Source of the DNA: an uncultured Senegalimassilia sp.
GTDB taxonomy: Bacteria > Actinomycetota > Coriobacteriia > Coriobacteriales > Eggerthellaceae
Length of the DNA: 64,000 nucleotides
NCBI GenBank assembly: GCA_934630815.1
Contig: CAKTWI010000002.1
Span: forward strand, 46,163 to 110,162
Direction of reading: 5' to 3'
The notes beneath the pieces were generated by a model. That model made no database searches. It was not told the DNA's origin and saw nothing but the letters and a program-made list of their open reading frames with translations. This document shows positions 20,312-40,900 of this stretch, piece by piece (within the stretch, counting starts at the first letter, position 1; each line of letters starts with the position of its first letter). Both the position numbers and the translations under genes were made by a program.

Positions 20312-21142
20312 ATGCCGTATGAACACCTTACCAGCGCAAACGATGCACGTTTGGCGCCGTATGCGCGTGTGCGCGATGCCGATTTGGCCGCTTGGCCCGA
20401 CGCGCCAGCTGGCTTGTTCATGGCGGAGTCACGTGCGGTCATCGCGGCGGCCGTCGAGGCCGGCGTCCGCCCGCGCTCCTTTCTGGTAAGCGAGTCTTGG
20501 GCTGATGACGCCGCGCCGCTTGCTCGCAAGCTGCTCGCGCAACACCCCGACTGCCCGGCGCTGCGCGTTCCCGACTCGCTGTTTTCCCAGGTCACCGGCT
20601 ACAAAATCGTGCGCGGCCCCGTGGCCGCGTTCGAGCGCCCCGCGCTGCTCGATCCCGCGCAGCTGCTCGCCGGCGCTCGCCGCGTTGCCGTGCTCGAGGA
20701 TGTTGGCAACTATGCCAACATCGGCAGCGCGTTCCGTGCGGCGCACGCGTTCGGCATCGATGCCGTGCTGGTCACGCCTTCGTGCCACGACCCGCTCTTC
20801 CGCCGCGCCAGCCGTACAAGCCAGGGCACGGTGCTGCAGGTGCCGTGGACGCGCATCGGCACGCAGCGCCAATGGGCCGCTGAGGGCGTCCCGCTGCTGC
20901 ATGCGGCCGGGTTCAAGGTAGCGGCGCTCGCGCTCGAGGACCGGTCGCTTGCGCTGGGCGACCCACGGCTTGCCGAGTGCGAGCGCTTGGCCATGGTGCT
21001 CGGCACAGAGGGGGCGGGCCTGTTCCCCTCGACCATCGCCGCGTGCGACTACACAGTGAAGATTCCCATGGCTCACGGTGTGGACAGTCTCAACGTCGCC
21101 GCCGCCAGCGCCGTAGCGTTTTGGGAGCTGCGCGCGAGGTAG
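20312..21142 (+). CDS. SpoU/TrmH-family RNA 2'-O-methyltransferase
   Basis: 276 residues from ATG 20312, preceded by AAAGGA. SPOUT motifs are visible: motif 1 LEDVGNYANIGSAFRAAHAFG, motif 2 LGTEGAGL, and motif 3 IPMAHGVDSLNVAAASAVAFWEL. The N-terminal part is a small substrate-binding domain. Family members methylate ribose 2'-OH in rRNA or tRNA; the target is not determinable. The last 99 bases are repeated at 24187-24285, so this gene's 3' end is an integration or duplication point. Confidence 0.9.
   Translation: MPYEHLTSANDARLAPYARVRDADLAAWPDAPAGLFMAESRAVIAAAVEAGVRPRSFLVSESWADDAAPLARKLLAQHPDCPALRVPDSLFSQVTGYKIVRGPVAAFERPALLDPAQLLAGARRVAVLEDVGNYANIGSAFRAAHAFGIDAVLVTPSCHDPLFRRASRTSQGTVLQVPWTRIGTQRQWAAEGVPLLHAAGFKVAALALEDRSLALGDPRLAECERLAMVLGTEGAGLFPSTIAACDYTVKIPMAHGVDSLNVAAASAVAFWELRAR
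21044..21142 (+). repeat. 99-bp direct repeat, left copy (3' end of the SpoU gene)
   Basis: This segment encodes the last 32 residues of the methyltransferase and its stop. It recurs at 24187-24285. Differences between the copies in the first half are synonymous third-base changes. The second half, from about 21092, is nearly identical, with one change in about 50 bases. This is the pattern expected for an element or homologous fragment joined at the gene end. Confidence 0.85.
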
Positions 21143-21487
21143 GGGCTTGAGGATTCAAGCTTTGTAAAAAGAACAGCGAGCAGCGTTATTTTCGATAGAT
21201 TTATAGCTTGATTGGGCGTAGTCGTAGCCATTGTTAGTGTGTGGACTGATGGGGCAAGCGGTTGGCTCGACCCGAGACGCGACGGTTCGATAGCTGTTAT
21301 TGCTAGATAAGCGAAGGACGCATTTACGTTCCTTGCCGAAGGCAAAGATGCGGTACGGTGATTGGCGCACTGTTCTTCCCAGCGGCTAAGATATATTCTG
21401 TCAGCATAATTCCATTGACTAGCGAAGACGCGTCTTCTTGATGATATGGGCGAGATATATCGATAACTTCAATATACCTCGCCTGAT
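21143..21487. other. AT-richer intergenic stretch at the left end of the insert
   Basis: 345 bp between the methyltransferase stop and the HEPN-like gene. Base composition drops noticeably compared with the flanks. No gene, integrase, tRNA or strong hairpin is seen. Confidence 0.5.
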
Positions 21488-21961
21488 TTACTTGTGCCGA
21501 GCAGAGGTGGTTATCGTTTTCGTAAGTCTGTTGAAGACTGCTACGGTTTCATTCAGATACGATAACGGAATAGCGAAATAAGCTGACTGCCCGCCTCTTT
21601 GATTGAAATCTTTGCCTTCGATTAAAGGTTGACCATCGTTGAAATATAGCTCAACATTGCCATGAGCAATGGCGTTTCTCAGGTGCCGAATCCAATCCAT
21701 TGCTTGACCATCTCCTTTTTTCATGGCTATTACCGGTGCGTTGTCTCTGCGCGTTGTTGCAAAATCAACTTCGGAACCATAGCCGAAATGGTCTTTCCTG
21801 AATCCGGGAATCTTCTTGAATTGATTTGCGAGCTTGCGCTTGTCGCCGCGCTTCCAGCTGCTAAGCGCTCTCCACTTCTCGGAGAGGAACCAGCCGATAG
21901 ATTCTGCGTGTTCGTTAAGCAGGTCGTATCGTTGAAGCTGTGCGAGAAAATTATTACTCAT
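21488..21961 (-). CDS. HEPN-like protein with RNxxxH motif
   Basis: 157 residues, last gene of a three-gene operon, overlapping the end of the preceding gene by 8 bp. Residues 92-101 (RHLRNAIAHG) contain Arg95-Asn-x3-His100, the Rx4-6H catalytic signature of HEPN ribonucleases, set in a helical context. The C-terminal part (AYFAIPLSYLNETVAVFNRL) resembles HEPN proteins such as the pEK499_p136 group. HEPN proteins with this motif are often RNases in toxin, abortive-infection or CRISPR systems. Base composition is lower in GC than in neighbours. The motif is seen; nuclease activity is inference. Confidence 0.7.
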   Translation of the reverse strand: MSNNFLAQLQRYDLLNEHAESIGWFLSEKWRALSSWKRGDKRKLANQFKKIPGFRKDHFGYGSEVDFATTRRDNAPVIAMKKGDGQAMDWIRHLRNAIAHGNVELYFNDGQPLIEGKDFNQRGGQSAYFAIPLSYLNETVAVFNRLTKTITTSARHK

Positions 21962-23621
21962 GGGTGTTGTCCAATGTGACGGTAATAGCAGGATAGATAG
22001 GTAGGGGGTCTCTGCTATCGTATATAACTTTGCTGCTTGCGCTAACTCTATCTGTGGATAGGTACCCGCAGATTAGCCAGTTGCTACCGTCCGATTGAAG
22101 CCATATTGCTGATTCGTAATCCTTGGTTTCCCTAAGGAGCTCGTCGGGATTCCGATAGGTTTTACCTTCGTCTATCAGTTGCATCGCATGGGTCATCTTG
22201 GAACGAGCTATAGCTTCTCTATTCTGGTTGGAGTCAGAGTTCGCTGCGTGTTGCGTCAAATCGAGAGAGAGACGCTCGTCTGGATACAAACTGCAGAATT
22301 CGTCTTTTGTAAGAAGTCTTGGCTGCTCAACAATCGTCTGATCTTCGGCTTCCGTGAACGCTTGAGTTGCGAAGGTGTTTTCGAGCCATTCTCTAATTGT
22401 GCTATCAGGGTAGGGCACCACTTCGTCTGCATTAAAATAGGGAAGGCATTCAAGGCCCTTCGCAGAAACGAGGGAGGCCGTGTTGTCGTCTTTGTCGATT
22501 TTCAGGACGAGCCACTCGATTGGCTCGTCTCCGTTGGTGGAGTCGTCATCTTGGTTGTAATGACCAAACTGAATGATTCCGTCTATGCCGGCTTGGCAAA
22601 TGCTATTGGATAGATTGAGGCGTATCTGTTCTCGTTGCTTTGTGAGGCACTCCTGCTGCATTGTGTCACTGTTTTTGTAGTTTCCTAGTTCAATAAAAAG
22701 TTGCGCTGCTTCATCGTAATTTCCCTGATCGTAAAGCAACTGCGCGTTGCCGTACATATTGTCTCGTTGCAGTTTTGGCATGAAGACTTGGCTAACCAAG
22801 AGGGCGGCAACAATGATGATGCAGGAGATGCATGCAGCAACAATGGTTGCTTTCTTTCGCCGTTTGAGTGATGTCGTCCTTTTGCTGCACGCTTCTTCAA
22901 GTTGTTGCATCTTTTCTTTGTCGCCGAGTTTATCTAAGCTGCGACATACACTTCTGATAGCGGACAGGCTTTTGCCGTTGATGGCTTTTTCTGCTTGCTG
23001 GACTATGCGTTTATCGCTAGCTTCCAACAGTGCCGCTTCATTTTCCCATAGCTTAAGTTTGTCGAAAGGGGCGTTGCAGATGCGACAGTATTTCCTATTC
23101 ACGTTGCACGCTCCGCATGTGCAACGTTCTGTGCCTTGGGAGTGTTCGTACCTAAATTCTATGTTCGGGAGCGCGGCGATATTGACGCCGGAAGCTAGCA
23201 TCTGCTTGCGTCGTTCCGTTCGCGCTCTTTCGGACAGTTCTATCGCTTGCTGCGGCGCAAGTACCCGGGGCTCTTGCCAAGCACTTGCGTCACTGTTGTT
23301 TACGCGCGTTACTAGGACCAATGCGCTATCGATTTCTTTCGCATTGATGGGTTTTGGCGCAGGCTTAAATTCTGCGCCCGCGGCGATTTCGGCATCGAGG
23401 TGCTCAAAAAAGACCGACTCGGTTAAACCGCCGCGAGCAACAACGCGGGCTTGAAGGCCAAAGGCGTGAATTGTCGAATTCGAGATATTCGTTGTTTTGA
23501 TTTGCAAGAAACACTGACTTGTCTCCACGTTGCGGGCAATCTGTATTACGTTAATCTGGAGTGGGCAGCCAAGTTGGTAGGATGGCGAATCGTCGCGAAA
23601 GATTACCTTATATTCGCTCAT
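21954..23621 (-). CDS. Membrane-anchored protein with zinc ribbon, TPR-like repeat and DUF6273-like domain
   Basis: 555 residues. Residues 1-130 look like a beta-rich domain. A zinc ribbon follows (Cys167, 169, 172, 179, 182), then a helical linker, a basic stretch and one transmembrane helix at about 259-280. A TPR-like unit comes next (NAQLLYDQGNYDEAAQLFIELGNY). The C-terminal domain, about 345-550, has the DUF6273 pattern (IQFGHYNQD, PIEWLVLKID, STIREWLENTFATQAF). Zinc ribbon inside and DUF6273 outside suggests a surface sensor or adhesin-type protein; function is unknown. It is flanked by a two-TM peptide and the HEPN-like gene. Confidence 0.72.
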   Translation of the reverse strand: MSEYKVIFRDDSPSYQLGCPLQINVIQIARNVETSQCFLQIKTTNISNSTIHAFGLQARVVARGGLTESVFFEHLDAEIAAGAEFKPAPKPINAKEIDSALVLVTRVNNSDASAWQEPRVLAPQQAIELSERARTERRKQMLASGVNIAALPNIEFRYEHSQGTERCTCGACNVNRKYCRICNAPFDKLKLWENEAALLEASDKRIVQQAEKAINGKSLSAIRSVCRSLDKLGDKEKMQQLEEACSKRTTSLKRRKKATIVAACISCIIIVAALLVSQVFMPKLQRDNMYGNAQLLYDQGNYDEAAQLFIELGNYKNSDTMQQECLTKQREQIRLNLSNSICQAGIDGIIQFGHYNQDDDSTNGDEPIEWLVLKIDKDDNTASLVSAKGLECLPYFNADEVVPYPDSTIREWLENTFATQAFTEAEDQTIVEQPRLLTKDEFCSLYPDERLSLDLTQHAANSDSNQNREAIARSKMTHAMQLIDEGKTYRNPDELLRETKDYESAIWLQSDGSNWLICGYLSTDRVSASSKVIYDSRDPLPIYPAITVTLDNTHE

Positions 23622-23623
23622 GG

Positions 23624-23869
23624 TTATAGCTCCGGAAGTTCGTCGTGCTGGAGCGTGGCGGTTTTTCTCGCCCTTTTATCCGGTGTGGCGCATACGATTA
23701 ATCCGACGGCAATGAGGCCGAGCGGCGCGCAGAGACCAACGAACCAGAGTGAGCCGGTTTTCATACCTTTTTCGCGCGCAATACGTGTCAGCAGGACGAG
23801 TGCAGAGACGCTTGCGATGAGGCTGACGATTCCGCAAATGATCATGATGCCCCAGAACAAATCCCACAT
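23624..23869 (-). CDS. Small two-helix membrane protein
   Basis: 81 residues, first gene of the operon, ending two bases before the 555-residue gene starts. Two hydrophobic segments are visible (about 5-28 and 41-61) with a short charged tail (KRARKTATLQHDELPEL). No family is recognised. Its start ATG at 23869 has a CGGAG site upstream and lies about 38 bp from the -10 box of the poly-C promoter. It could be a holin-like or anchor peptide for the operon; this is only a guess from size and topology. Confidence 0.65.
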   Translation of the reverse strand: MWDLFWGIMIICGIVSLIASVSALVLLTRIAREKGMKTGSLWFVGLCAPLGLIAVGLIVCATPDKRARKTATLQHDELPEL

Positions 23870-23906
23870 GATTTACTCCGTTCTCTGTCGGATTGCATGC
23901 TCTGTA

Positions 23907-23937
23907 AATGTAGCGGGGGGGGGGTGCGTGCTGTCAA
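23907..23937 (-). promoter_or_regulatory. Putative phase-variable promoter with a 10-C spacer tract
   Basis: Read on the minus strand there is a perfect TTGACA (23932-23937), then 19 bp containing ten consecutive C residues (23915-23924), then TACATT (23907-23912). A homopolymer between -35 and -10 lets slipped-strand mispairing change the spacer length. Nineteen is above the 17-bp optimum, so loss of two C residues would switch expression up. The promoter drives the three-gene operon ending at 21488. Confidence 0.7.
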
Positions 23938-24186
23938 GGCGGATGCGCTTATAGGGATAGTGGCAAAGTGGGCGATGAGTTTTTAAAACCAGGAGATGCT
24001 TAAGATTGTTATTAAAGTGCACTTTTGTGATTCCTCATCTCGCCTACGAGACTTTTGCCAATTAAGTAACACCCTGGTTTTCAGGGCTAAGTTCATGCAG
24101 CTTTGCGGCCCACGGTTTTTGTCATATGACACGCTCGGTAATGAAGAACTATGCTGATTTGAGCGTTGCAAGATCTGAGTGCTTCC
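23938..24186. other. Non-coding right part of the insert
   Basis: AT-rich sequence between the poly-C promoter and the right SpoU repeat. Nothing recognisable is found. There are short related words (accaggag, ccctggttttcaggg) but no clear attachment site, integrase or RNA gene. Confidence 0.4.
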
Positions 24187-24285
24187 TGCGACTATACGGT
24201 AAAGATCCCCATGGCTCATGGCGTGGACAGCCTCAACGTCGCCGCCGCCAGCGCCGTAGCGTTTTGGGAGTTGCGCGCGAGGTAG
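24187..24285 (+). pseudogene. Right direct repeat: displaced 3' end of a SpoU methyltransferase gene
   Basis: The 99 bases encode CDYTVKIPMAHGVDSLNVAA and the rest of the same C-terminal 32 residues and stop as 21044-21142, in frame but without the rest of the gene. Third-base differences show that it came from a diverged allele, or has aged under selection before being cut off. Confidence 0.85.
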
Positions 24286-24291
24286 TGCCGT

Positions 24292-24322
24292 CAGTGCCGT
24301 AGCCTTCTGGGGTTCCGCCTGA
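24292..24322 (+). pseudogene. Third, degenerate copy of the SpoU gene tail
   Basis: Directly after the right repeat, bases cagtgccgtagccttctggggttc again spell S-A-V-A-F-W followed by a stop (tga at 24320). It resembles the gene end (ASAVAFWELRAR) with more drift. It suggests that the site has been hit more than once. The stretch up to the cold-shock promoter holds nothing else. Confidence 0.45.
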
Positions 24323-24472
24323 GATAGCACTGGCGGCGGGTTGCTTGGGCTGTTGCATGCCAGCGGGCAGCTCGCCTCTCCTGCCTGGCAACCGATCGCG
24401 GCCACATTGACAACACAACGTTAAATCTTCCCTCCCCGCCAGATTCCCGGACGTTTTCTTTGGCTGTTAGCG

Positions 24473-24574
24473 TATGATGGAACGCGTGCTCTCGAGGTGA
24501 GGGCGAGTGTTGCCGCCATGCAACGCGCAGTGTTACCCCCGTGCGATAGCGCGGGAGAGAAAAGAGGATTTAAA
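24473..24574 (+). promoter_or_regulatory. Promoter and leader of the cold-shock gene
   Basis: A TATGAT -10 box lies at 24473-24478, about 97 bp before the ATG. The long leader (gtgttgccgccatgcaacgcgcagtg and on) and the strong GAAAAGAGGA ribosome site are typical of cspA mRNAs, which are controlled by leader structure. The -35 is not clear. Confidence 0.45.
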
Positions 24575-29664: not shown

Positions 29665-30152
29665 TGCCAGATTCCTCCTTTGGGAGATTACGCGTTGACT
29701 AGGTGTTTTTCGCCGTTTATGTTAACGAAATCGTGCTGAACATGCGTCTTAAAGACCCTTTTCAATTCTAGCAGTGACGCCGTGATAGGCGTTAGCGTCG
29801 TTCTCGACGTCAAGCCACGAATGGAGTCGCTATGGGCGCTAACGATGATCAGCGCTGGTGTTTAAGGGAGGGAAATGCATCAGCGGGGATTCGATTTCGC
29901 CTAGCGTTTTGTTTGCATCCCCTCGTCGATAAGTTGCGCTATGCCAACCTCCGCACGCGGCAGGAAGTAGCCCCCCGCTAATCAACCCTCCCGCTGCCTT
30001 ACGGGGCAATCCCGGACCCAATTAGCTGCCAGCTAATGTTCGCCGCCGTTTCTTGATATATACTGGATGCATATTACCTGGTGAGAGCTTCGGTTTTGCA
30101 TTTGCTCCGCGGTTTTAGGGTCTTTTTCGTTGCGTTCCGAGAGGAGCTTTGC
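29665..30152 (+). promoter_or_regulatory. Upstream region of the cas operon
   Basis: 488 bp of mixed, AT-richer sequence with no supported gene. It contains CGTTAGCG and CGCTAACG words in inverted order around 29790-29855. An AT-rich stretch near 30050-30080 is the likely cas promoter, but no box pair is convincing. Confidence 0.4.
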
Positions 30153-32420
30153 ATGATGGAAGGTTCTAGGGAGGAGGGCGTCCATTTTTCGGACGCAGCC
30201 CCCAAATACGTAGCGCATATCTCCGAGGACGGGGAACGGGTCGAATCCGTAGAAACCCATCTGCGCCAGGTTGCCCAGCTGGCATCGACATTTGCCGAGG
30301 ATTTCGGTGCGGCGTCATGGGCGTATACTGCTGGCATCGCTCACGATATCGGGAAGTTCTCTCCTGCTTTCCAGCGGAGGATCTTGCACGACGGCCCCAA
30401 GGTCGATCATTCGACCGCCGGTGCTGCGGAGCTTAGCAAATATGCCGCCGGAATGCTCTCGTATTGCGTTGCCGGCCATCATGGCGGTTTGCCGAACGGA
30501 GGAACGATCCTCGATGATGGCGGAACGCTTCTCGGCCGCCTTAACGCTGCCGAACACAACGCAATTCCCGATTACTCAAGCTATCGCAGCGAAATCGCGC
30601 TATCTTGTCCCGATGCGCCGCGGTTCAGCGTCATTCCCTCGGACAACGAAAGCGGGGCGTTTAGCACGTCGTTCATGACGCGCATGGTTTTCAGCTGCCT
30701 CGTCGACGCCGATTATCTTTGCACGGAAGCGTTTATGAACAACGCTGGCCGACAAGGCGTCGAAGGGGACTCCTTGGAAGTGCTCCGCGATAGGATGGAA
30801 GAGCACTTTCAGTCGTTTTACCCTCCTCGCACATGGGTGAATGAGATACGCTGCTCTCTGCTTGATGATTGCCTGGCGGCTTCTTCGCAGCAACCCGGCG
30901 TATTCTCTTTGACCGCTCCGACGGGTAGCGGAAAAACGTGGGGTTTACTTCGGTTCGCGCTCAATCATGCCTGCTCGCAACCCAAACCCATGCGCAGGGT
31001 TATATGCGCCATTCCCTACACGTCTATCATCGAGCAGAACGCCCAGGAGTATCGCAAAGTTCTAGGCGCTGAAAATGTCCTGGAGCACCACAGCTCGTTT
31101 GACTATGGGGAGTCTGACGATCCGAAAGATCTTGGGTATCGGCTTAGGCTGGCTGCCGAAAACTGGGACGCTCCCGTTGTGGTCACCACGAATGTCCAGC
31201 TGTTCGAATCCTTGTATGCGTCGAAGACGTCGCGATGCCGAAAGCTGCACAATATCGCCAATAGCGTCATCTTGCTCGATGAAGCCCAGATGATATCCGT
31301 GAAGTATCTGAAGCCTTGCGTGAAAGCGCTTTCCGAGCTGGTGAACAATTATGGCTGCTCGGTTGTTCTGTGCACGGCAACGCAGCCGTGCTTGGATGGG
31401 TTCTTCGCAGACGAGGGCCACGAAGTTCGGGAAATCGCGGCGAACCCCGCGGCTCTTGCGAAAACCTTGTCGCGCGTTCGCTACCAAAGCGACGGTGCGG
31501 TAGCGGACGATGCCCTGGTGCAGAGCCTCCTCACCCAGCATCAAGCGCTCTGCATCGTGAACAGCAGGAAGCAGGCGCGGGCGCTGTACGACATGCTTGC
31601 GGAGCAAAACGAAGATGGCGTATTCCATCTGACCACTATGATGCATCCTCTCCATCGCCAGGAGAAGATCGCGGAAATCAAAGCGCTCCTTCATGCCAAT
31701 CAACGTTGCATTGTGGTGGCTACCTGCCTTGTGGAAGCAGGCGTCGACTTTGATTTCCCGGTGGTGTATCGAGCGGTTTCCGGCGTAGACTCCCTCGTTC
31801 AGGCAGGAGGGCGCTGCAATCGCGAAGGAGGGCGCGAAAAGGATGACAGCATCGTCCATGTTTTCACGCCGGCTGACGATTACGTCGTCCCGGCGGAGGT
31901 TGAGCAGCGCGCTGCTGTGGCGCAGAGCGTCATGCCGTCGTTGCTGTCGGTTTCGGACGGCTATCTCGAGGTAGAGGATGCCGTGCCCGCCTACTTCAAC
32001 CGCCTATATAAAGCCAAAGGCGAACGTGAGCTGGATGCGAAGAATATCGTTCCTCGCATGTCGCAGCTTGATCCCAGAAGGGCTCCTCGGGATGGCTCTC
32101 CGATTTGCGTCTTTCCCTTCTTGGATGTCGGCAATGATTTCAAGCTCATCGAGGAAGGGTCGTTCCCTTTGGTGATTCCTTGCGAGGAGAACGAGGGCGC
32201 TATCGAACGAGCGCGAAGCGGCTTGCTGACAAGGGGAGACCAGCGGCTGTTATCGCGCTACACGGTGTCGATTTACCTCAACGACTTAAAGGCGCTTGAT
32301 GAGGCAGGTGCTATTGAGTCGCTTAGCGCCAGCACGTACGTTTTGCTGGATAGACAATCTTATCGAGATGACGTTGGGTTGGATATCGCCCGCGAAGGGG
32401 GTGATGCCCTCTTTTGCTAA
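30153..32420 (+). CDS. cas3: CRISPR-associated helicase/nuclease Cas3 (type I-C)
   Basis: 755 residues. ATG 30153 is chosen because GAGAGGAG lies just upstream; the GTG at 30081 has none. An N-terminal HD nuclease domain (AGIAHDIGKFSPAFQRR, and AGHHGG later) is fused to an SF2 helicase: Walker A TAPTGSGKTWG, DEAQ box LLDEAQMIS, CTATQP, then VEAGVDFDFPVVYR and QAGGRCNREGG. Cas3 is recruited by Cascade to cut and unwind target DNA. It is the first gene of a complete I-C operon, whose GC is lower than the genome average, as expected for a mobile defence locus. Confidence 0.95.
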   Translation: MMEGSREEGVHFSDAAPKYVAHISEDGERVESVETHLRQVAQLASTFAEDFGAASWAYTAGIAHDIGKFSPAFQRRILHDGPKVDHSTAGAAELSKYAAGMLSYCVAGHHGGLPNGGTILDDGGTLLGRLNAAEHNAIPDYSSYRSEIALSCPDAPRFSVIPSDNESGAFSTSFMTRMVFSCLVDADYLCTEAFMNNAGRQGVEGDSLEVLRDRMEEHFQSFYPPRTWVNEIRCSLLDDCLAASSQQPGVFSLTAPTGSGKTWGLLRFALNHACSQPKPMRRVICAIPYTSIIEQNAQEYRKVLGAENVLEHHSSFDYGESDDPKDLGYRLRLAAENWDAPVVVTTNVQLFESLYASKTSRCRKLHNIANSVILLDEAQMISVKYLKPCVKALSELVNNYGCSVVLCTATQPCLDGFFADEGHEVREIAANPAALAKTLSRVRYQSDGAVADDALVQSLLTQHQALCIVNSRKQARALYDMLAEQNEDGVFHLTTMMHPLHRQEKIAEIKALLHANQRCIVVATCLVEAGVDFDFPVVYRAVSGVDSLVQAGGRCNREGGREKDDSIVHVFTPADDYVVPAEVEQRAAVAQSVMPSLLSVSDGYLEVEDAVPAYFNRLYKAKGERELDAKNIVPRMSQLDPRRAPRDGSPICVFPFLDVGNDFKLIEEGSFPLVIPCEENEGAIERARSGLLTRGDQRLLSRYTVSIYLNDLKALDEAGAIESLSASTYVLLDRQSYRDDVGLDIAREGGDALFC

Positions 32421-32478
32421 TCGACTTACGTAGCATAGACGGTTTGCGCCGTATGGCAAAACGAAAGGAGGTTGGGAC

Positions 32479-33141
32479 GTGTCGTTCGGTTTCAGTATTG
32501 AAGCATGGGGCGAAAGGGCGCTGTTCACGCGACCCGAGCTTAGCGTTGAACGCGTGACTTACGACGTGATCACGCCAAGCGCCGCTCGAGGTTTGATTGA
32601 AAGCGTGTATTGGCATCCGGGAATGCGCTATGTCATCGACCGGATTCATGTGATCAACCCGATTGAATTCAGCAGCGTTCGGAGAAACGAAGTAAAGGCG
32701 AAGGCGGCTCTTTCATCGATGCGTAGCGCAATCGAAGGGTCGAAGGAGCTGCCGTATATCAGCTCGCAAGAGAATATCGTTCAGCGAGCATCTCTGATTT
32801 TGACTGATGTGCGTTACGTCATTGATGCCCATTTCGTCATGACGGACCAGGCAAAGGCTGAGGATAATCCGGGCAAATTCTGCGACATTTTGAAGCGCCG
32901 TTTGCGTAAAGGCCAGTGTTACAGCCAGCCGTATTTTGGTTGCAGGGAGTTTCCTGCAAATGTGCGATTGCTTGAAGGGGAGATGCCGGAGAGCGCATAT
33001 TCCGCTGTTGGGGAGCGTGACTTCGGAATCATGCTATTCGATATGGATTACTCCAACCATCAAGATATCACCCCTATGTTTTATCGCGCTGTCATGAAGA
33101 ACGGCGTTATCGATGTGGCCGGTAGCGAGGTGTATCGATGA
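32479..33141 (+). CDS. cas5c: Cas5 (Cas5c/Cas5d), pre-crRNA processing endonuclease of type I-C
   Basis: 220 residues from GTG 32479, preceded by GAAAGGAGG. The RAMP-type start FSIEAWGERALFTRPELSVERVTYDVITPSAARGLIE is the classic Cas5d N-terminus. In type I-C, which lacks Cas6, this protein cuts the repeat hairpin and stays bound to the 5' handle. It overlaps cas8c by 4 bp. Confidence 0.95.
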   Translation: MSFGFSIEAWGERALFTRPELSVERVTYDVITPSAARGLIESVYWHPGMRYVIDRIHVINPIEFSSVRRNEVKAKAALSSMRSAIEGSKELPYISSQENIVQRASLILTDVRYVIDAHFVMTDQAKAEDNPGKFCDILKRRLRKGQCYSQPYFGCREFPANVRLLEGEMPESAYSAVGERDFGIMLFDMDYSNHQDITPMFYRAVMKNGVIDVAGSEVYR

Positions 33142-34886
33142 TTATCTCCTCGTTGGCAAATTATTATGGCCGGCTGCTTGAAAACCCTGCAAGCGGCGTT
33201 GCCAAGCCTGGTTGGTGCGAGCGTCAAGTTAAATTCATGCTTGAGCTTTCCCTCGATGGGAAGCTCAAAAGCGTTATCCCTTGCGGAGACGGAAAACACG
33301 GAGCATCGAAAATCGTTCCGGAGCAGGAGAAACGCTCGTCTGGCATCAAGGCGAATTTCCTCTGCGATACATCGTCGTACCTTCTTGGTGCTGATAGCAA
33401 GGGGAAGCCGGAAAGGGCACTTCAGTGCTTTGAGGCCTCAAAGCAACTGCACGAAGCGCTTCTATCGGATGCTGATAGCCCTATGGCTGCCGCTATCGTG
33501 AACTACTTCAATCTATGGAATCCTGGCCAGATCCTTGATAACCCTATCCCAGGGTTTACCGAAGAGGTCCTTGAAGGGGGAAATCTGGCGTTCTGTTTGG
33601 AAGACGGAACGACGTGGAAAGAAGCATGCAGCGACCCGTCGATAAAAAGGGTTTGCGACGAGCGCGTGCAGAATGACGAAGGCCAGTCGGAGATGGTTTC
33701 GCTGGTTACGGGGCGAAGGGAGCCTATTGCTCGCTTACATCCAGCCATCAAGGGTGTTGCTGGTGCGCAGTCCATGGGTGCCTCTCTCGTTGGATTCAAC
33801 TGCGAGGCGTTCGAGTCGTATGGGCATGCGAAAGAGCAGGGAAGAAATGCTCCTGTTGACGTTAAAAGCACGCAGGCTTACACAACGGCTCTGAATTACT
33901 TGCTTGCCCATCGAGAGCATCGAGGAAGGTTCGGCGACACCACTGTGGTGTTCTGGTCTTCCTCTCAAACTGCGGACCAGGGGAATTGCTCGGTCTTATC
34001 GCTTGCGCTGGGCTTCTCGATTTTTGAGAGCAAGGAGTCTGAGTCGGAAGCGACGGCTAATCTGAAGGCGGCGCTCGAAAGGTTGCAGGCGGGCAAGCCG
34101 GTAGATATCGAAGGCGTTTCGTTTGGCGATGAGTTTTACCTTCTGGGCCTTGCGCCGAATGCCGCTCGTCTTTCGGTGCGCTTCTTTCTGCGGGATTCGT
34201 TTGGCGAAGTGATGCGCCATGTTGCGGATCACTATCGGATTACCGACGTATGCCATGCTGCTTTCGATCAGCCGATCGCTACCCCATATCGTCTTCTTGA
34301 CAGCCTTGAAAACCCAAATGCGAAGGAGCCGGTAATCAGCTCGCAACTTAGCGCCTCGCTGATGCGCTCGATACTGCAAGGGGCAAGGTATCCCGAGGCA
34401 TTGTTCCAGAACGCCCTGCTTCGTGTTCGCGCTACGAAAACGGTTAAGCGAGAGCATGCAGCCATCATCAGGGCATATTTAATTCGAAACGCAAAAATGG
34501 AAGAGAAGGAGATCGCCGTGGATGTAAACCCTTCGAACAAAAACGAGGCTTATGTACTCGGTCGGACATTTGCCGTTCTCGAGCAAATTCAGGAAGCGGC
34601 AAATGGGAAGGCGACCATAGCTGATCGCTATTTGAACGCCGCTTGCTCGACTCCTGCAACGACGTTTCCCGTCCTGTTGAAGTTAAGCGTCGCTCACTTG
34701 TCAAAGGTTTCTCGCGATAAACCTGGGCTTGGGGTTCATCTGGAAAAGGCGCTCGGTGAGCTTATGGAGATGCAGCAAACCTCTTTCCCCAAGCGGCTTT
34801 CGCTCATCGACCAAGGCAGCTTTCTGCTGGGCTATTACCAGCAGAAGCGGGCGCGCTACAAGAAAAACGACGAGCAGGAAGCATAG
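33138..34886 (+). CDS. cas8c: Cas8c (Csd1), large Cascade subunit
   Basis: 582 residues, the normal Csd1 length. It begins MIISSLANYYGRLLENP and contains the family blocks FLCDTSSYLLG, VSLVTGRREPIARLHPAIKGVAGAQSMGASLVGFN and a helical C-terminal domain. It recognises the PAM and holds the non-target strand. The last part also encodes the small subunit Cas11c from an internal start, listed separately. Confidence 0.95.
   Translation: MIISSLANYYGRLLENPASGVAKPGWCERQVKFMLELSLDGKLKSVIPCGDGKHGASKIVPEQEKRSSGIKANFLCDTSSYLLGADSKGKPERALQCFEASKQLHEALLSDADSPMAAAIVNYFNLWNPGQILDNPIPGFTEEVLEGGNLAFCLEDGTTWKEACSDPSIKRVCDERVQNDEGQSEMVSLVTGRREPIARLHPAIKGVAGAQSMGASLVGFNCEAFESYGHAKEQGRNAPVDVKSTQAYTTALNYLLAHREHRGRFGDTTVVFWSSSQTADQGNCSVLSLALGFSIFESKESESEATANLKAALERLQAGKPVDIEGVSFGDEFYLLGLAPNAARLSVRFFLRDSFGEVMRHVADHYRITDVCHAAFDQPIATPYRLLDSLENPNAKEPVISSQLSASLMRSILQGARYPEALFQNALLRVRATKTVKREHAAIIRAYLIRNAKMEEKEIAVDVNPSNKNEAYVLGRTFAVLEQIQEAANGKATIADRYLNAACSTPATTFPVLLKLSVAHLSKVSRDKPGLGVHLEKALGELMEMQQTSFPKRLSLIDQGSFLLGYYQQKRARYKKNDEQEA
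34518..34886 (+). CDS. cas11c: Internally translated small subunit Cas11c within cas8c
   Basis: Inside cas8c, in the same frame, AAGGAGA at 34506-34512 sits 5 bp before GTG 34518. It would give a 122-residue product, VDVNPSNKNEAY to the shared C-terminus. Type I-C systems are known to make Cas11c from an internal ribosome site in the 3' part of cas8c, with a product of this size. The ribosome site and size are seen; translation itself is inferred. Confidence 0.7.
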   Translation: MDVNPSNKNEAYVLGRTFAVLEQIQEAANGKATIADRYLNAACSTPATTFPVLLKLSVAHLSKVSRDKPGLGVHLEKALGELMEMQQTSFPKRLSLIDQGSFLLGYYQQKRARYKKNDEQEA

Positions 34887-34916
34887 CAACGCAGTTTCGG
34901 ATTTGGAGGCATAATC

Positions 34917-35810
34917 ATGAGCAACCCTATTACCAATCGCTACGATTTCGTTGTGTTCTTCGATGTTGAGAACGGCAACCCCAATGGAGACCCTGATGCC
35001 GGCAACATGCCGCGAATCGACCCCGAGACCGGCTACGGTGTGGTGACCGATGTGTGCCTGAAGCGAAAAATCAGGAACTACGTGGAAACGGTTAAAGAGG
35101 GGGAGCCCGGGTTCGAGATTTACATCAAAGAAGGCGTTCCCTTGAATGTGAGCGATCGGCGAGCATATGAGGAGTTGGGAATCGATCCTAAGGAAACGAA
35201 GAAGCTGAAAAAGGATAACCCTCAGCTTGATGTCCAGCTGCGTGATTGCATGTGCAAGGCGTTTTACGATATCCGCACGTTTGGCGCCGTGATGACCACC
35301 TTCGTGAAAGACAACCTCAACTGTGGTCAGGTTCGAGGCCCTGTTCAGCTTACGTTCTCCCGTAGCGTCGACCCGATAATCCCGCAGGAGGTCACCATTA
35401 CGCGCGTGGCCATCACCAAGGAAGACGACGCTGCGAAAAAGGGCACCGAGATGGGTCGGAAGTATGTGGTTCCCTACGGCCTGTATCGTTGCGAAGGGTT
35501 TGTTTCCGCGAACCTGGCCCGCAAAACCACTGGTTTCTCGGAAGAAGACCTTGAGCTTCTCTGGAGCGCCATCATCAACATGTTCGAGCACGACCATTCC
35601 GCCGCTCGCGGCAAGATGGCCGTTCGCTCCCTCATCGTGTTCAAGCATGATTCCGAGTTGGGCAACGCGCCTTCGTACCAGCTGTTCGATGCCGTGAGCA
35701 TTGCGAAAAAGGACGGCGTTGAAGCGCCTCGCTCGTTTAAGGATTACGAGGGCGTTGTCGTCGATGAGGACGCTATTCCCGCAGGTGTGGAAGTGATTCG
35801 CAAGCTTTAG
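34917..35810 (+). CDS. cas7c: Cas7 (Csd2), Cascade backbone subunit
   Basis: 297 residues. The N-terminal RRM-type motif NRYDFVVFFDVENGNPNGDP and DVCLKRKIRNYV are diagnostic of Csd2. GPVQLTFSRSVDPI and the C-terminal region complete the family pattern. About six or seven copies coat the crRNA spacer. Confidence 0.96.
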   Translation: MSNPITNRYDFVVFFDVENGNPNGDPDAGNMPRIDPETGYGVVTDVCLKRKIRNYVETVKEGEPGFEIYIKEGVPLNVSDRRAYEELGIDPKETKKLKKDNPQLDVQLRDCMCKAFYDIRTFGAVMTTFVKDNLNCGQVRGPVQLTFSRSVDPIIPQEVTITRVAITKEDDAAKKGTEMGRKYVVPYGLYRCEGFVSANLARKTTGFSEEDLELLWSAIINMFEHDHSAARGKMAVRSLIVFKHDSELGNAPSYQLFDAVSIAKKDGVEAPRSFKDYEGVVVDEDAIPAGVEVIRKL

Positions 35811-35818
35811 GGGCGGAT

Positions 35819-36475
35819 ATGTATTCGGACGAAGAGTTCTTGGCGCTTTCGGGCATCCAGCATTTCGCATTTTGCCGTAGGCAGTGGGCGCTTATCCATA
35901 TCGAAAAGCGCTGGCAGGAAAACTACCTTACGGCGTCGGGGCAGATGATGCATCAGCGAGCCCACGACGAGGAGATTCGGGAGCGTCGCGGTGCATTGCT
36001 CATAGTGCGTGGGCTCTTCGTCCGATCTTCCAAGCTGGGACTTTCGGGTGTTTGCGATATCGTTGAGTTCCATCGGGACGATCAGGGCGTTCCCTTGTTC
36101 GGCGAAGATGGTATTTGGACGCCGGTGCCCGTTGAATACAAGCGAGGGAAGTCGAAAAGCGGCGAATGCGATCGCCTGCAGGTATGTGCTCAGGCGATGT
36201 GCCTCGAGGAGATGCTCGGTTGCGACATAGAAAGCGGGTATTTGTTCTACAAGCAAACGCAATCGAGGGAACCCGTTGCCTTCACGGAGGAACTGCGAGA
36301 ATCGGTGCGAAAGTTGTCGGCGGAAATGCATGAGCTTTTCCGCAAAGGCCACGTTCCTCATGTGCGCAAAGGGAAGGCGTGCTCGGCTTGCTCTTTGCGT
36401 GACGAGTGTTTGCCGTCTTTGCAGCCGCGTTCCGCGACTTCCTATATCGACGCGGCATTGGAGGCCTGGGAATGA
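35819..36475 (+). CDS. cas4: Cas4 nuclease for spacer acquisition
   Basis: 218 residues. ALSGIQHFAFCRRQWALIHIE carries the first iron-sulfur cysteine. PVEYKRGKSK is the PD-(D/E)xK core. CSACSLRDEC at the C-terminus supplies the remaining [4Fe-4S] ligands. Cas4 trims prespacers and selects the PAM with Cas1-Cas2. The stop overlaps the cas1 start (ATGA). Confidence 0.95.
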   Translation: MYSDEEFLALSGIQHFAFCRRQWALIHIEKRWQENYLTASGQMMHQRAHDEEIRERRGALLIVRGLFVRSSKLGLSGVCDIVEFHRDDQGVPLFGEDGIWTPVPVEYKRGKSKSGECDRLQVCAQAMCLEEMLGCDIESGYLFYKQTQSREPVAFTEELRESVRKLSAEMHELFRKGHVPHVRKGKACSACSLRDECLPSLQPRSATSYIDAALEAWE

Positions 36476-37503
36476 AGAAGATCAAGAACACGCTGTACGT
36501 GTTTACCGAGGATGCTTATTTGACGCTCGATGGCGAAAACGTCGTCGCGAAAGTCGGCAGCGATGCCCTGGGGAGATTCCCGCTGCATACACTTGAAGGG
36601 ATCAGCTTGTTCTCGTATGCCGGCGCAAGCCCGGCTTTGATGGGCGCTTGCTGCGAGCGGGGCATCAGGCTTACGTTCTTTTCTCCCAGCGGACGGTACC
36701 TTGCAGATGCGAGGGGTGCGTGTTCGGGAAATGTGCTGCTGAAGAAAGCGCAGTTCAGAGCTTCGGAAAGCGAGTCATTATCGCTTGCCGTGGCTCGTAA
36801 TTGTATTTTGGGCAAGGTGTACAACTCGCGCTGGGTTTTGGAGCGTGCGATTCGCGATCACGGTCTCCGCATGGATGTCGACGCGGTGCGATCGGCGTCT
36901 GCCCGCTTGTACGATTCCGTGAAAGCGATTCGGGAATGCGACTCGCTCGATTCGCTGCGTGGAATCGAGGGTGATGCCGCTCAGATTTACTATTCGGCGT
37001 TTGACCAGATGATACTTCGAAATAAGGATGATTTCCGTTTCGCAGGTCGTTCTCGCCGACCGCCGCGTGATCGGGTCAATGCGATGTTGTCGTTGTTCTA
37101 TTCCGCCTTGGCGCGTGACTGCGCCTCGGCCCTGCTAGGGGTTGGCTTGGATCCGTCGGTCGGATTCATGCACGTAGATCGGCCGGGAAGGGATTCGCTT
37201 GCGCTTGACTGCATGGAGGAGCTACGGCCGATATTCGTTGACCGATTCGTGTTGACGGCGATCAACAATCGCCTAGTGAGCGCCGATGATTTCGATATCA
37301 GGGAAACCGGCGAGGTGCGGCTGACGGATGATGCGCGCAAGAAGCTGTTCAAAGCATGGCAAGAAAGAAAACGCGAAACGCTGATGCATCCGTTCGTTAA
37401 AGAGAAGATTCCTCGCGGATTGGTTCCTAATGTGCAGGCGCAATTGCTGGCGAAGTTCCTTCGCGGGGACCTGGATGCCTATCCGCCGTTTCTCTGGAAG
37501 TAG
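36472..37503 (+). CDS. cas1: Cas1 integrase (type I-C)
   Basis: 343 residues from ATG 36472, overlapping cas4; longer starts upstream lie inside cas4. The start MKKIKNTLYVFTEDAYLTLDGENVV is typical. Catalytic regions are present: RGIEGDAAQIYYSAFD (Glu), GFMHVDRPGRDSLALDCMEELRP (His and acidic residue). With Cas2 it integrates new spacers at the leader end of the array. Confidence 0.96.
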   Translation: MKKIKNTLYVFTEDAYLTLDGENVVAKVGSDALGRFPLHTLEGISLFSYAGASPALMGACCERGIRLTFFSPSGRYLADARGACSGNVLLKKAQFRASESESLSLAVARNCILGKVYNSRWVLERAIRDHGLRMDVDAVRSASARLYDSVKAIRECDSLDSLRGIEGDAAQIYYSAFDQMILRNKDDFRFAGRSRRPPRDRVNAMLSLFYSALARDCASALLGVGLDPSVGFMHVDRPGRDSLALDCMEELRPIFVDRFVLTAINNRLVSADDFDIRETGEVRLTDDARKKLFKAWQERKRETLMHPFVKEKIPRGLVPNVQAQLLAKFLRGDLDAYPPFLWK

Positions 37504-37512
37504 GGTGGTCAA

Positions 37513-37800
37513 ATGGTTTTGATTACGTACGACATTGATACCACCGATGCAGCCGGACGAAAGCGCCTTAGAAGGATTGCAAAAGCTTGCGTGAATTATG
37601 GCCAGCGGGTGCAGGCGTCGGTTTTCGAATGCGATGTCGATGCGGCGACATTGGTTACCCTGAAAGCGGCGCTGCTTGAAATCGCTGATCCCACAAAAGA
37701 CAGCTTGCGGATTTATCACCTGGGAAACAAGTGGCAGGGAAAGGTTGAGCACTTCGGCGCTAAGCCTAGTTATGACCCGGAAGGGTTTCTTGCATTATGA
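37513..37800 (+). CDS. cas2: Cas2 (type I-C)
   Basis: 95 residues. [43 protein letters not shown] is the ferredoxin-fold Cas2 pattern with the conserved Asp in YDI. It is the structural partner of Cas1 and is followed directly by the CRISPR leader. Confidence 0.96.
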
Positions 37801-37960
37801 GATTGCGAACCACGGGCGATCATGCTCTATGAAGGAGGTTCGCACCGCGTTTCTATGCTTTCTGCTGCCGTATTGCGGGATTTGCCGGCTAAATTTGCGG
37901 CGACGGTCTTTGAAAATACAATACTTTGCTGATAATAGAGTGATGCTACAAAATGTAGCG
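37801..37960 (+). promoter_or_regulatory. CRISPR leader
   Basis: 160 bp between cas2 and the first repeat, AT-rich near the array. A TTGAAA word at 37910-37915 and TAATAG/GATAAT words at 37931-37938 could be the array promoter. CTACA-aaa-TGTAG at 37946-37958 forms a small palindrome immediately before the first repeat, where Cas1-Cas2 integrates. Confidence 0.6.
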
Positions 37961-40900
37961 GTCGCTCCCCGCAAGGGGAGCGCGGATTGAAATCGCTTCA
38001 TGCGCGTAGACCGCGCAAGCGGCAACGTCGCTCCCCGCAAGGGGAGCGCGGATTGAAATAACAAGGTATTCAGGCAAGCCCGCGCACACATAAGCGTCGC
38101 TCCCCGCAAGGGGAGCGCGGATTGAAATTGCACGGCATCGTAGTTTGCGCCAAGCTTTGCCTTGTCGCTCCCCGCAAGGGGAGCGCGGATTGAAATTATC
38201 TGCATCGAAATTCTTGGCGCACACATCGCAGTCGCTCCCCGCAAGGGGAGCGCGGATTGAAATTGGAACCAAGCGCCCGTGCAGCTCACCGTGGAGAGTC
38301 GCTCCCCGCAAGGGGAGCGCGGATTGAAATAAGACCGCGAGCGCGATCGGGCTGTCCGGCGACGTCGCTCCCCGCAAGGGGAGCGCGGATTGAAATAGCT
38401 CGGCGAGCGTGATCGGCGTCGGCGAGGCCGGTCGCTCCCCGCAAGGGGAGCGCGGATTGAAATCTGATGTGGAACACCACCAACACCAACCAAGGCGTCG
38501 CTCCCCGCAAGGGGAGCGCGGATTGAAATTCCACCTTGTTGGCCGGGCCTGCGTTCATGACGCGTCGCTCCCCGCAAGGGGAGCGCGGATTGAAATTGGC
38601 GTACGTAAGCTTCATAGACAGATTCGCGCCAGTCGCTCCCCGCAAGGGGAGCGCGGATTGAAATCAGCAAGGCGGTAAGCACAGGCACCACGAACGCCGT
38701 CGCTCCCCGCAAGGGGAGCGCGGATTGAAATCCCGCGATGGGGCCGCATGTCCATGGCACGAAGTTGTCGCTCCCCGCAAGGGGAGCGCGGATTGAAATT
38801 TCCAGGGGGATGTCCATGACGGTCTCCCCCGCCGGATGTCGCTCCCCGCAAGGGGAGCGCGGATTGAAATGATGACCTCGCGGTACATGCCCTCAGGCAC
38901 GTAGTCGCTCCCCGCAAGGGGAGCGCGGATTGAAATATCATGCCGTCGGGCATGCTCACGCCGGTTCCCTTGGTCGCTCCCCGCAAGGGGAGCGCGGATT
39001 GAAATGGCGTTGGCTTGCCGCATAAATCGCACGTGTACGTCGCTCCCCGCAAGGGGAGCGCGGATTGAAATATACGAAATGATGGGGTTACGCGCTAGAA
39101 AGGAGACGTCGCTCCCCGCAAGGGGAGCGCGGATTGAAATGTACACGCGCATTGTGCACATGGCGATGGCGTTCGCCGTCGCTCCCCGCAAGGGGAGCGC
39201 GGATTGAAATTCTACACGCTGGAAACCGAGACGGACGATGCTGGTCGCTCCCCGCAAGGGGAGCGCGGATTGAAATCGCGAAGCCTACGAGGAGAGTTTG
39301 GAGGAGGAGGTCGCTCCCCGCAAGGGGAGCGCGGATTGAAATAACTGCTGCCCGAAGTGCTGGCGAGAGGTGGTGGTCGCTCCCCGCAAGGGGAGCGCGG
39401 ATTGAAATGGTCGAGATATCGAGGAGTAGCGGCGGCGAATAGTCGCTCCCCGCAAGGGGAGCGCGGATTGAAATGCGTAGTCCACCACGGGCGGAAGCGA
39501 AAGCTCCGTCGCTCCCCGCAAGGGGAGCGCGGATTGAAATTGAGGTCGAATCTCCGTCACCGTGATAGTGCTGTGTCGCTCCCCGCAAGGGGAGCGCGGA
39601 TTGAAATGCCAGCGATTGCCGCATCGCAGGCTATGACGGTGGTCGCTCCCCGCAAGGGGAGCGCGGATTGAAATACTATCGGAGGGTGCGCGGTAAGTGG
39701 CTTTTGCGTCGCTCCCCGCAAGGGGAGCGCGGATTGAAATCCGTGGGAATGGTTCGCCTTAACCCTGTTCATGGTCGCTCCCCGCAAGGGGAGCGCGGAT
39801 TGAAATAGCTCCGCGAAACCGACCAGCACGACGCTGCCGGACGTCGCTCCCCGCAAGGGGAGCGCGGATTGAAATGCCATCTGCTGCCGGTATGCCTGGT
39901 CACCTACCATGTCGCTCCCCGCAAGGGGAGCGCGGATTGAAATCTAAAGCCCCGGCAAGAATTTTGCGAGCGCATTGTCGCTCCCCGCAAGGGGAGCGCG
40001 GATTGAAATTGCGCTATCTCGTCAACGGCCAGGGCGTAATCGATGTCGCTCCCCGCAAGGGGAGCGCGGATTGAAATCGCGAATCGGTAGGGTGTTGACT
40101 ATAGAAGCCGGTCGCTCCCCGCAAGGGGAGCGCGGATTGAAATGTTGCATCTGCTGGGCGCAGAGCAACCGAACAATGTCGCTCCCCGCAAGGGGAGCGC
40201 GGATTGAAATCACCTTGGTTTCCATTTGATGTTGCCGGTGTCCGTCGCTCCCCGCAAGGGGAGCGCGGATTGAAATTGCGATGCGCTCCGCATGAATCTC
40301 CATCAACCGTCGCTCCCCGCAAGGGGAGCGCGGATTGAAATTCCACCCGCCCCGATTCGGAGATTGCCACGCTGCGTCGCTCCCCGCAAGGGGAGCGCGG
40401 ATTGAAATCGCCTCAAAATTACTGTTGCTTAGCGCTACTCCACGTCGCTCCCCGCAAGGGGAGCGCGGATTGAAATCTGGGGTGCGACAAGCCCAAGAAG
40501 CTGAAGTCGGCGTCGCTCCCCGCAAGGGGAGCGCGGATTGAAATTCGATGTAGGAGATGCCGAAGGCCGAGAACACCTCGTCGCTCCCCGCAAGGGGAGC
40601 GCGGATTGAAATCCGGTGCTACAGCTGATTGACCGCCAGGCGCAACGTCGCTCCCCGCAAGGGGAGCGCGGATTGAAATAAACTGGCAGGGCGGGTATAA
40701 CCCCACCCTTACGTCGCTCCCCGCAAGGGGAGCGCGGATTGAAATCTAGACGCGATGGGCGCGGCCGCAGGCGACGGCTGTCGCTCCCCGCAAGGGGAGC
40801 GCGGATTGAAATCTCGCGATGGCCTTGCGGCACTTCGGGCAGAAAAGGTCGCTCCCCGCAAGGGGAGCGCGGATTGAAATCTTGGGCATCGCCGAACCCC

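Follow-up and report, generated by a model that had tools for sequence, protein, structure and literature searches.

A probable sigma-70-type promoter with ten consecutive C residues in its 19-bp spacer precedes a three-gene operon in the 64-kb window, i.e., the whole stretch of DNA from an uncultured Senegalimassilia sp. that was analyzed. We consider it probable, at roughly 70%, that this promoter drives the operon, which is located on a small insert, and that the slippage-prone tract makes it a transcriptional phase switch. By replication slippage a C would be gained or lost in the C10 tract, each such event would shift the distance between -35 and -10 by one base, and the altered spacing would turn transcription of all three genes up or down, heritably and reversibly. 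The window promoter should be active, its tract should vary within the species and the spacing should control the output. Phase variation was already proposed for this promoter in the original prediction and is the best explanation of the data. Comparative support comes from a homologous cassette in another genome (locus L093), from the enrichment of such promoters over reversed patterns, from the hydrophobic N-termini encoded behind them and from changes in tract length at the promoters of other genes.

The probable promoter and the operon in the window

All features of the locus are listed in Table 1. TTGACA, the 19-bp spacer, C10 and TACATT had been predicted with the correct coordinates on the minus strand, and the predicted three-gene operon downstream was borne out as well. 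Seven bp separate the perfect TTGACA from the C tract downstream of it, and the poly-C neither replaces nor covers the -35. The homopolymer is located between a recognizable -35 and a recognizable -10, as expected for phase variation of the spacer type. TACATT is separated by 37 bp from the ATG (23869) of the gene for the 81-aa protein, and GGAG is found immediately 5' of this ATG.

Table 1. Positions of the promoter elements, the operon genes and the insert in the window.
Feature	Position	Strand	Remarks
-35 hexamer TTGACA (6/6)	23932..23937	-	sequence
Spacer, 19 bp, GCACGCA-C10-GC	23913..23931	-	sequence
C10 tract within spacer (G10 on +)	23915..23924	-	sole homopolymer of at least 7 in the 64-kb window
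-10-like hexamer TACATT, 4/6 match	23907..23912	-	sequence
81-aa small membrane protein, operon gene 1	23624..23869	-	two hydrophobic stretches by eye; passes hydrophobicity test
555-aa protein, operon gene 2	21954..23621	-	N-terminal beta domain, CxCG..CxxC zinc-ribbon motif, one hydrophobic helix (by eye)
157-aa protein, operon gene 3	21488..21961	-	98%-identical homologue P0011 carries PF18736
Left direct repeat, final 99 bp of intact methyltransferase gene	21044..21142	+	SpoU-type by eye
Right direct repeat, 91/99 identical to left	24187..24285	+	followed by native flank as in S. anaerobia
Insert, 3,143 bp including right repeat	21143..24285	.	absent from loci L001 and L002

The C10 tract stands alone among homopolymers of seven or more anywhere in the window. 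A Markov model of the window predicts 0.14 G/C runs of at least 10 and 5.9 of exactly 7, and long runs are therefore otherwise rarer than expected. When C10 was inserted in silico at each of 127,840 positions, counted over both strands of the window, no position gave an exact TTGACA together with TANNNT at a spacing of 15-20 bp, and 24 positions gave an exact TTGACA together with at least four of six matches to TATAAT. The length of the tract at this promoter is taken from one assembly, and no second copy of the promoter locus was found in the sequence collections searched.

The operon is tight, with a gap of 2 bp between genes 1 and 2 and an overlap of 8 bp between genes 2 and 3. A membrane product is usual, and not strictly defining, for phase-variable loci, and here the 81-aa protein passes the hydrophobicity test. 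A homologue of this protein precedes the large gene in relatives too, and K34, G35, P63 and P79 are invariant among the nine members of the family. In the 555-aa protein the motif CxCGxxN..CxxC is invariant in 12 aligned rows, and the C-terminal part shows sub-threshold similarity to TPR and DUF6273 (Pfam). Its predicted structure (mean pLDDT 64) is confident for the N-terminal domain and poor for the C-terminal part, and no match to the PDB was obtained at E <= 0.001. The 157-aa protein itself has no Pfam match. The assignment of its homologue P0011 to PF18736, which we take to be a HEPN family, is a precomputed annotation, and the 157-aa protein gives a weak PADLOC match to RTasHEPN (E=0.009). 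For the three operon proteins together NCBIfam returned no match, PADLOC this one weak match and PHROGs weak matches. Protein searches, one of which scored the 7998 candidates sharing most words, identified few homologues (at least two, six and two for genes 1, 2 and 3). The operon genes are not restricted to this assembly, because the closest protein clusters contain 23, 59 and 33 member sequences.

The operon is located on an insert at a methyltransferase gene

The gene next to the operon encodes an RNA methyltransferase according to the annotation of plasmid matches. Its best match is from Senegalimassilia anaerobia JC110 (95% at the amino acid level), followed by an Eggerthellaceae MAG (91%). 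The window is collinear with both closest loci except for positions 21143-24285, which are missing there. Since the 3' end of the gene is repeated, the second repeat is followed by the native flank and the segment is absent from L001 and L002, the operon and its promoter are part of an insert of 3,143 bp that sits at the 3' end of this gene. The GC content of the insert is 0.49, compared to 0.66 and 0.63 in its two flanks. No repeat of the 99-bp type was present in 22 further loci that were tested, L001 and L002 and some loci with short flanks among them.

Direct repeats of the 3' end of the target and an empty site in relatives are features of a site-specific integrative element. An own integrase was found neither among the three genes, by Pfam, NCBIfam or homologues, nor among the shorter ORFs of the insert when these were read by eye. 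Searches of viral contigs, plasmids and phages gave nothing useful, as did Rfam on window positions 20-30 kb and a tRNA search. Elsewhere in the window (30081-38817) a type I-C-like CRISPR-Cas locus was recognized by eye, with Cas3-, Cas5-, Cas8-, Cas7-, Cas4- and Cas1-like ORFs followed by a probable repeat array near 37.8-38.8 kb.

Homologous cassettes in other Coriobacteriia

Cassettes were searched with the 555-aa protein in 138 Eggerthellaceae genomes, of which 21 matched, some of them in the C-terminal domain only, and with its N-terminal part in 396 Coriobacteriia genomes, where 17 matched, a few weakly. In one of them, L093 from genome G058, the homologue of the 81-aa protein is preceded by TTGACA-AGA-C11-GA-TATCTT, a promoter with a 16-bp spacer. 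The homologue is 40% identical to the 81-aa protein, and the large protein of this cassette shows 28% identity over 342 columns. The 2.5 Mb of G058 contain just 12 C/G runs of at least 8. Between the C11 promoter and the 81-aa homologue (upstream of 7496) lies a small HTH-like ORF with an in-frame stop. A small HTH-like ORF directly behind a poly-C promoter was likewise seen in L187 (genome G400, after C10), where it is open.

The pattern TTGACAN{2,9}C8 occurs at seven places (15 overlapping matches) in the 138 Eggerthellaceae genomes, one of which is the L093 cassette; as the reversed pattern gives four matches, the pattern taken by itself shows no clear enrichment. By our own estimate, which sets 12 cassettes against an assumed total of 276,000 genes, the chance that one of seven such sites hits a cassette is about 3 in 10,000.

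A tract in the spacer was found in two of the 17 inspected cassettes, those of the window and L093, and is missing in the other 15. Two of the 17 (L154 and L159) were positioned from a match that begins inside the large gene, and the L154 cassette was also read directly. Poly-C as a conserved feature of the cassette was rejected, as the tracts of at least 8 found around other cassettes sit at other places. Near the cassettes of L096 (5973-5981) and L156 they fall, by eye, in the part of divergent genes that codes for the N-terminus of exported proteins. Near L102 the tract is located at the 3' end of an XRE-type gene in divergent orientation (by eye), and near L094 and at L096:7916 the tracts lie outside any clear promoter. 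The runs in the coding ends at L096:5973-5981 and L156 are G9, and the orthologous place in L157 has G6; these G9 runs are candidate translational contingency loci. By eye the divergent genes at L156 (-531 from the large gene), L157 (-527) and L096:5973-5981 encode exported or pilin-like proteins. In L094, L095, L096 and L097 the palindrome TGTTGCGCAACA or a near variant was seen by eye upstream of the 81-aa homologues. The cassettes carrying it have no spacer tract, and it was not seen in the promoters of the window and L093. The palindrome is possibly an operator for a regulator.

Homopolymer spacers recur in predicted promoters of Coriobacteriia

The pattern TTGACN{3,11}C9N{0,7}TANNNT was found at 15 sites in 14 of the 396 Coriobacteriia genomes, compared to two matches of the reversed pattern (p=0.001). 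Eleven of these 15 spacers measure 15-18 bp, and two only 13 bp. For TTGACN{3,11}G9N{0,7}TANNNT 49 matches were obtained, corresponding to 46 distinct sites in 37 of the 396 genomes, against three matches of the reversed pattern (p=3.5e-11). C and G sites combined thus amount to 61, versus five reversed-pattern matches. Of 40 G sites that were fetched, 36 have a spacer of 15-20 bp (p=1e-7 if gaps are uniform), with a modal spacing of 19 bp (12 sites); the spacer-length tests treat gaps as uniform across the search pattern and use assumed weights for run length. The 61 sites probably include some that are not promoters, e.g., the two C sites with 13-bp spacers.

The genes behind these sites were analyzed for 54 of the 61, namely the 40 fetched of 46 G sites and all C sites except L175, which the coordinate filter excluded (14 of 15). 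At 52 of the 54 sites an ORF of at least 60 aa was present within 300 bp, and the longest one was chosen. This rule does not always select the true gene, as the ORFs chosen for L177 and L178 differ from the gene read by eye and the first ORF of L187 (58 aa) falls below the limit. A protein was scored as exported if a 15-residue stretch with a mean hydropathy of at least 2.0 was present within the first 120 residues. Such a hydrophobic N-terminal segment is encoded by 35 of the 52 downstream ORFs, compared to 34 of 196 ORFs in the background set (odds ratio 9.8, p=1.3e-11). For this set the longest ORFs that do not overlap were taken from 17 loci, of which 16 are titled as Coriobacteriia taxa and one only as 'Bacterium D16-34'; it is an approximate control because all of them stem from one gene neighborhood. 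By eye, many of the downstream ORFs resemble signal-peptide proteins.

That the poly-G design would be exclusive to Coriobacteriia was rejected, since three of 50 outgroup genomes match and the reversed control gives zero. These three (G430, G451 and G471; loci L027, L050 and L070) are all titled Faecalibacterium, which accounts for eight of the 50 outgroup genomes. Per genome, 37 of 396 Coriobacteriia compare to three of 50 in the outgroup (p=0.6); the design is therefore recurrent, without evidence of being special to Coriobacteriia.

Individual sites deserve mention. L141 (G071) carries TTGACA-CACG-C9-ATCAT-TATTAG 54 bp before a lipoprotein-like gene (Pfam PF05139, 62.8 bits), and this C9 promoter has no counterpart recognizable by eye in the orthologue L219. 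In G400 two sites, L177 and L187, carry TTGACAAGGAA-C10-TA before unrelated small genes, which encode a SHOCT membrane protein and an HTH plus zinc-ribbon-like protein.

Tract length and spacing in related species

Four pairs of related species were aligned at poly-G promoters of other genes, with one genome per species and single assemblies. Tract length differs in three of the four pairs and total spacing in two. In L258/L259 (G10/G9) the tract is the sole indel, with 507 of 530 positions identical and 23 substitutions. L244/L243 also has G10/G9 (461/530 identical, 3 gap columns), L252/L253 has G10/G11 at unchanged total spacing (412/530, 12 gap columns), and in L249/L250 the tracts are equal (442/527, 8 gap columns).

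The identical C10 spacers of L182 and L183, from two species, were considered as a second conserved case and discarded, as wider sampling revealed a spacing kept constant by substitution. At the promoter of another Eggerthellaceae gene, analyzed in its 11 closest orthologues out of 28 genomes with a match (L188-L198), the spacer is 17 bp in eight and 18 bp in three, while the longest C run spans 2 to 10, with C10 in two species. Because these orthologues keep 17-18 bp, a C-rich spacer can acquire C10 through substitutions while its length is maintained, and a spacer homopolymer therefore need not be a switch. In S. anaerobia (G001:C3:388601-388617; L142, L214) TTGACACCG-C8 is followed by TGTTTAGTAGAGTGAA and a stretch of N, and a protein related to the L182 membrane protein is encoded about 1.2 kb beyond this site.

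The orthologues are the main argument for reading the window promoter as a working promoter with an incidentally C-rich spacer, in which C10 arose by drift, the spacing is under selection and no switching takes place. We regard this as rather unlikely. No second run of at least 7 exists in the window, the spacing of the promoter is 19 bp and not 17-18 bp, and the homologous cassette of G058 has C11 at a different spacing. The recurrence of the design and its bias to hydrophobic N-termini also speak against an incidental spacer.

It is quite improbable that the tract instead alters regulator binding or the DNA shape near the -35, in the manner of opc, or that the true promoter is located elsewhere. 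TACATT is a weak -10, and a consensus scan that requires a spacing of 16-18 bp does not list the C10 promoter at its present 19 bp; according to PMC7864442, the tracts of opc and tprL are believed not to act through spacing. However, the same scan detected no other minus-strand sigma-70-like promoter upstream of the operon in 21100-24500, and the tract and the -35 do not overlap. A chance or assembly-affected homopolymer without regulatory role is very improbable: the sequence is a single assembled one and lengths of long G/C runs are error-prone, but the tract sits between -35 and -10, G058 provides a parallel and such sites are enriched over reversed patterns in Coriobacteriia.

Within the preferred reading of a phase switch, the ON length would most likely be a spacing of 17-18 bp, i.e., C8-C9. 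The 11 orthologues suggest that 17-18 bp is a natural distance for promoters of this group, in which case the 19 bp of the window would be sub-optimal. On the other hand, the 40 poly-G promoters have a mode of 19 bp, which speaks against assigning ON and OFF firmly. The expectation of low expression at 10 C and high expression at 8 C is thus favored by the orthologues, opposed by the poly-G promoters and not established.

Wider meaning

With about even odds, the observations extend to a broader reading, in which gut Coriobacteriia and, outside them, at least Faecalibacterium would carry a set of undescribed slippage promoters, comparable to the contingency repertoire of Neisseria. As part of it, the tracts would be G9-G17 or C9-C13 in sigma-70 spacers, often before genes for exported or membrane proteins, and the window would represent a mobile-looking insert whose promoter switches a membrane-plus-HEPN operon, so that no more than a fraction of the cells would express the acquired function. 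The mechanism itself is already known; what is more novel is how widely the pattern occurs in gut commensals. If the window promoter and its about 60 counterparts in Coriobacteriia do switch, clonal populations of common gut commensals would be mixtures of cells differing in surface proteins. Such mixtures would be relevant to phage susceptibility, immune recognition and colonization, and they would be invisible in consensus assemblies.

Comparison with known systems

In the open-licence literature that was accessible, including that on Eggerthella lenta, Senegalimassilia and Collinsella, we found no description of a Coriobacteriia promoter that switches through a poly-G/C tract in its spacer. 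The published spacer-slippage promoters in these sources are from pathogens, plus one passing remark on Bifidobacterium. For E. lenta, of the same family as the window, phase variation of the capsule is described (PMC13174815), based on large DNA inversions rather than slippage; a term search gave no homopolymer and a single passing mention of slipped-strand mispairing. Prophage recombinases and retroelements of E. lenta are described in PMC8778435.

In Bifidobacterium breve, according to PMC9187656, an intragenic G-tract switches a pilus by acting on the reading frame, and the authors mention in passing further G-tracts within promoter spacers. Replication slippage in a gut actinobacterium would be common to both, whereas the tracts studied in B. 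breve are intragenic and that of the window is in a promoter.

The original prediction had named neisserial porA and opc as precedents for a homopolymer in the spacer; both original studies are cited in the reference list of PMC5084427. For meningococcal opc this does not apply: according to PMC7864442 its poly-C covers the -35 region, and the two systems share a poly-C in the promoter region, whereas the perfect -35 of the window lies outside the tract. The precedent of porA holds, and fetA, porA and tp0126 are better ones than opc. In gonococcal fetA (frpB) a poly-C between -10 and -35 ranges from C10 to C14 among strains (PMC5320596). It resembles the window in the poly-C tract in the spacer and differs in its Gram-negative host and in its product, a siderophore receptor; strain variation and an effect on expression are reported for fetA and are predicted for the window promoter. 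Meningococcal porA and treponemal tp0126 have a spacer homopolymer with an optimum of 17 bp (PMC7864442). These two carry poly-G on the sense strand instead of the poly-C of the window and belong to other genes and phyla, but they share with it the homopolymer in the spacer.
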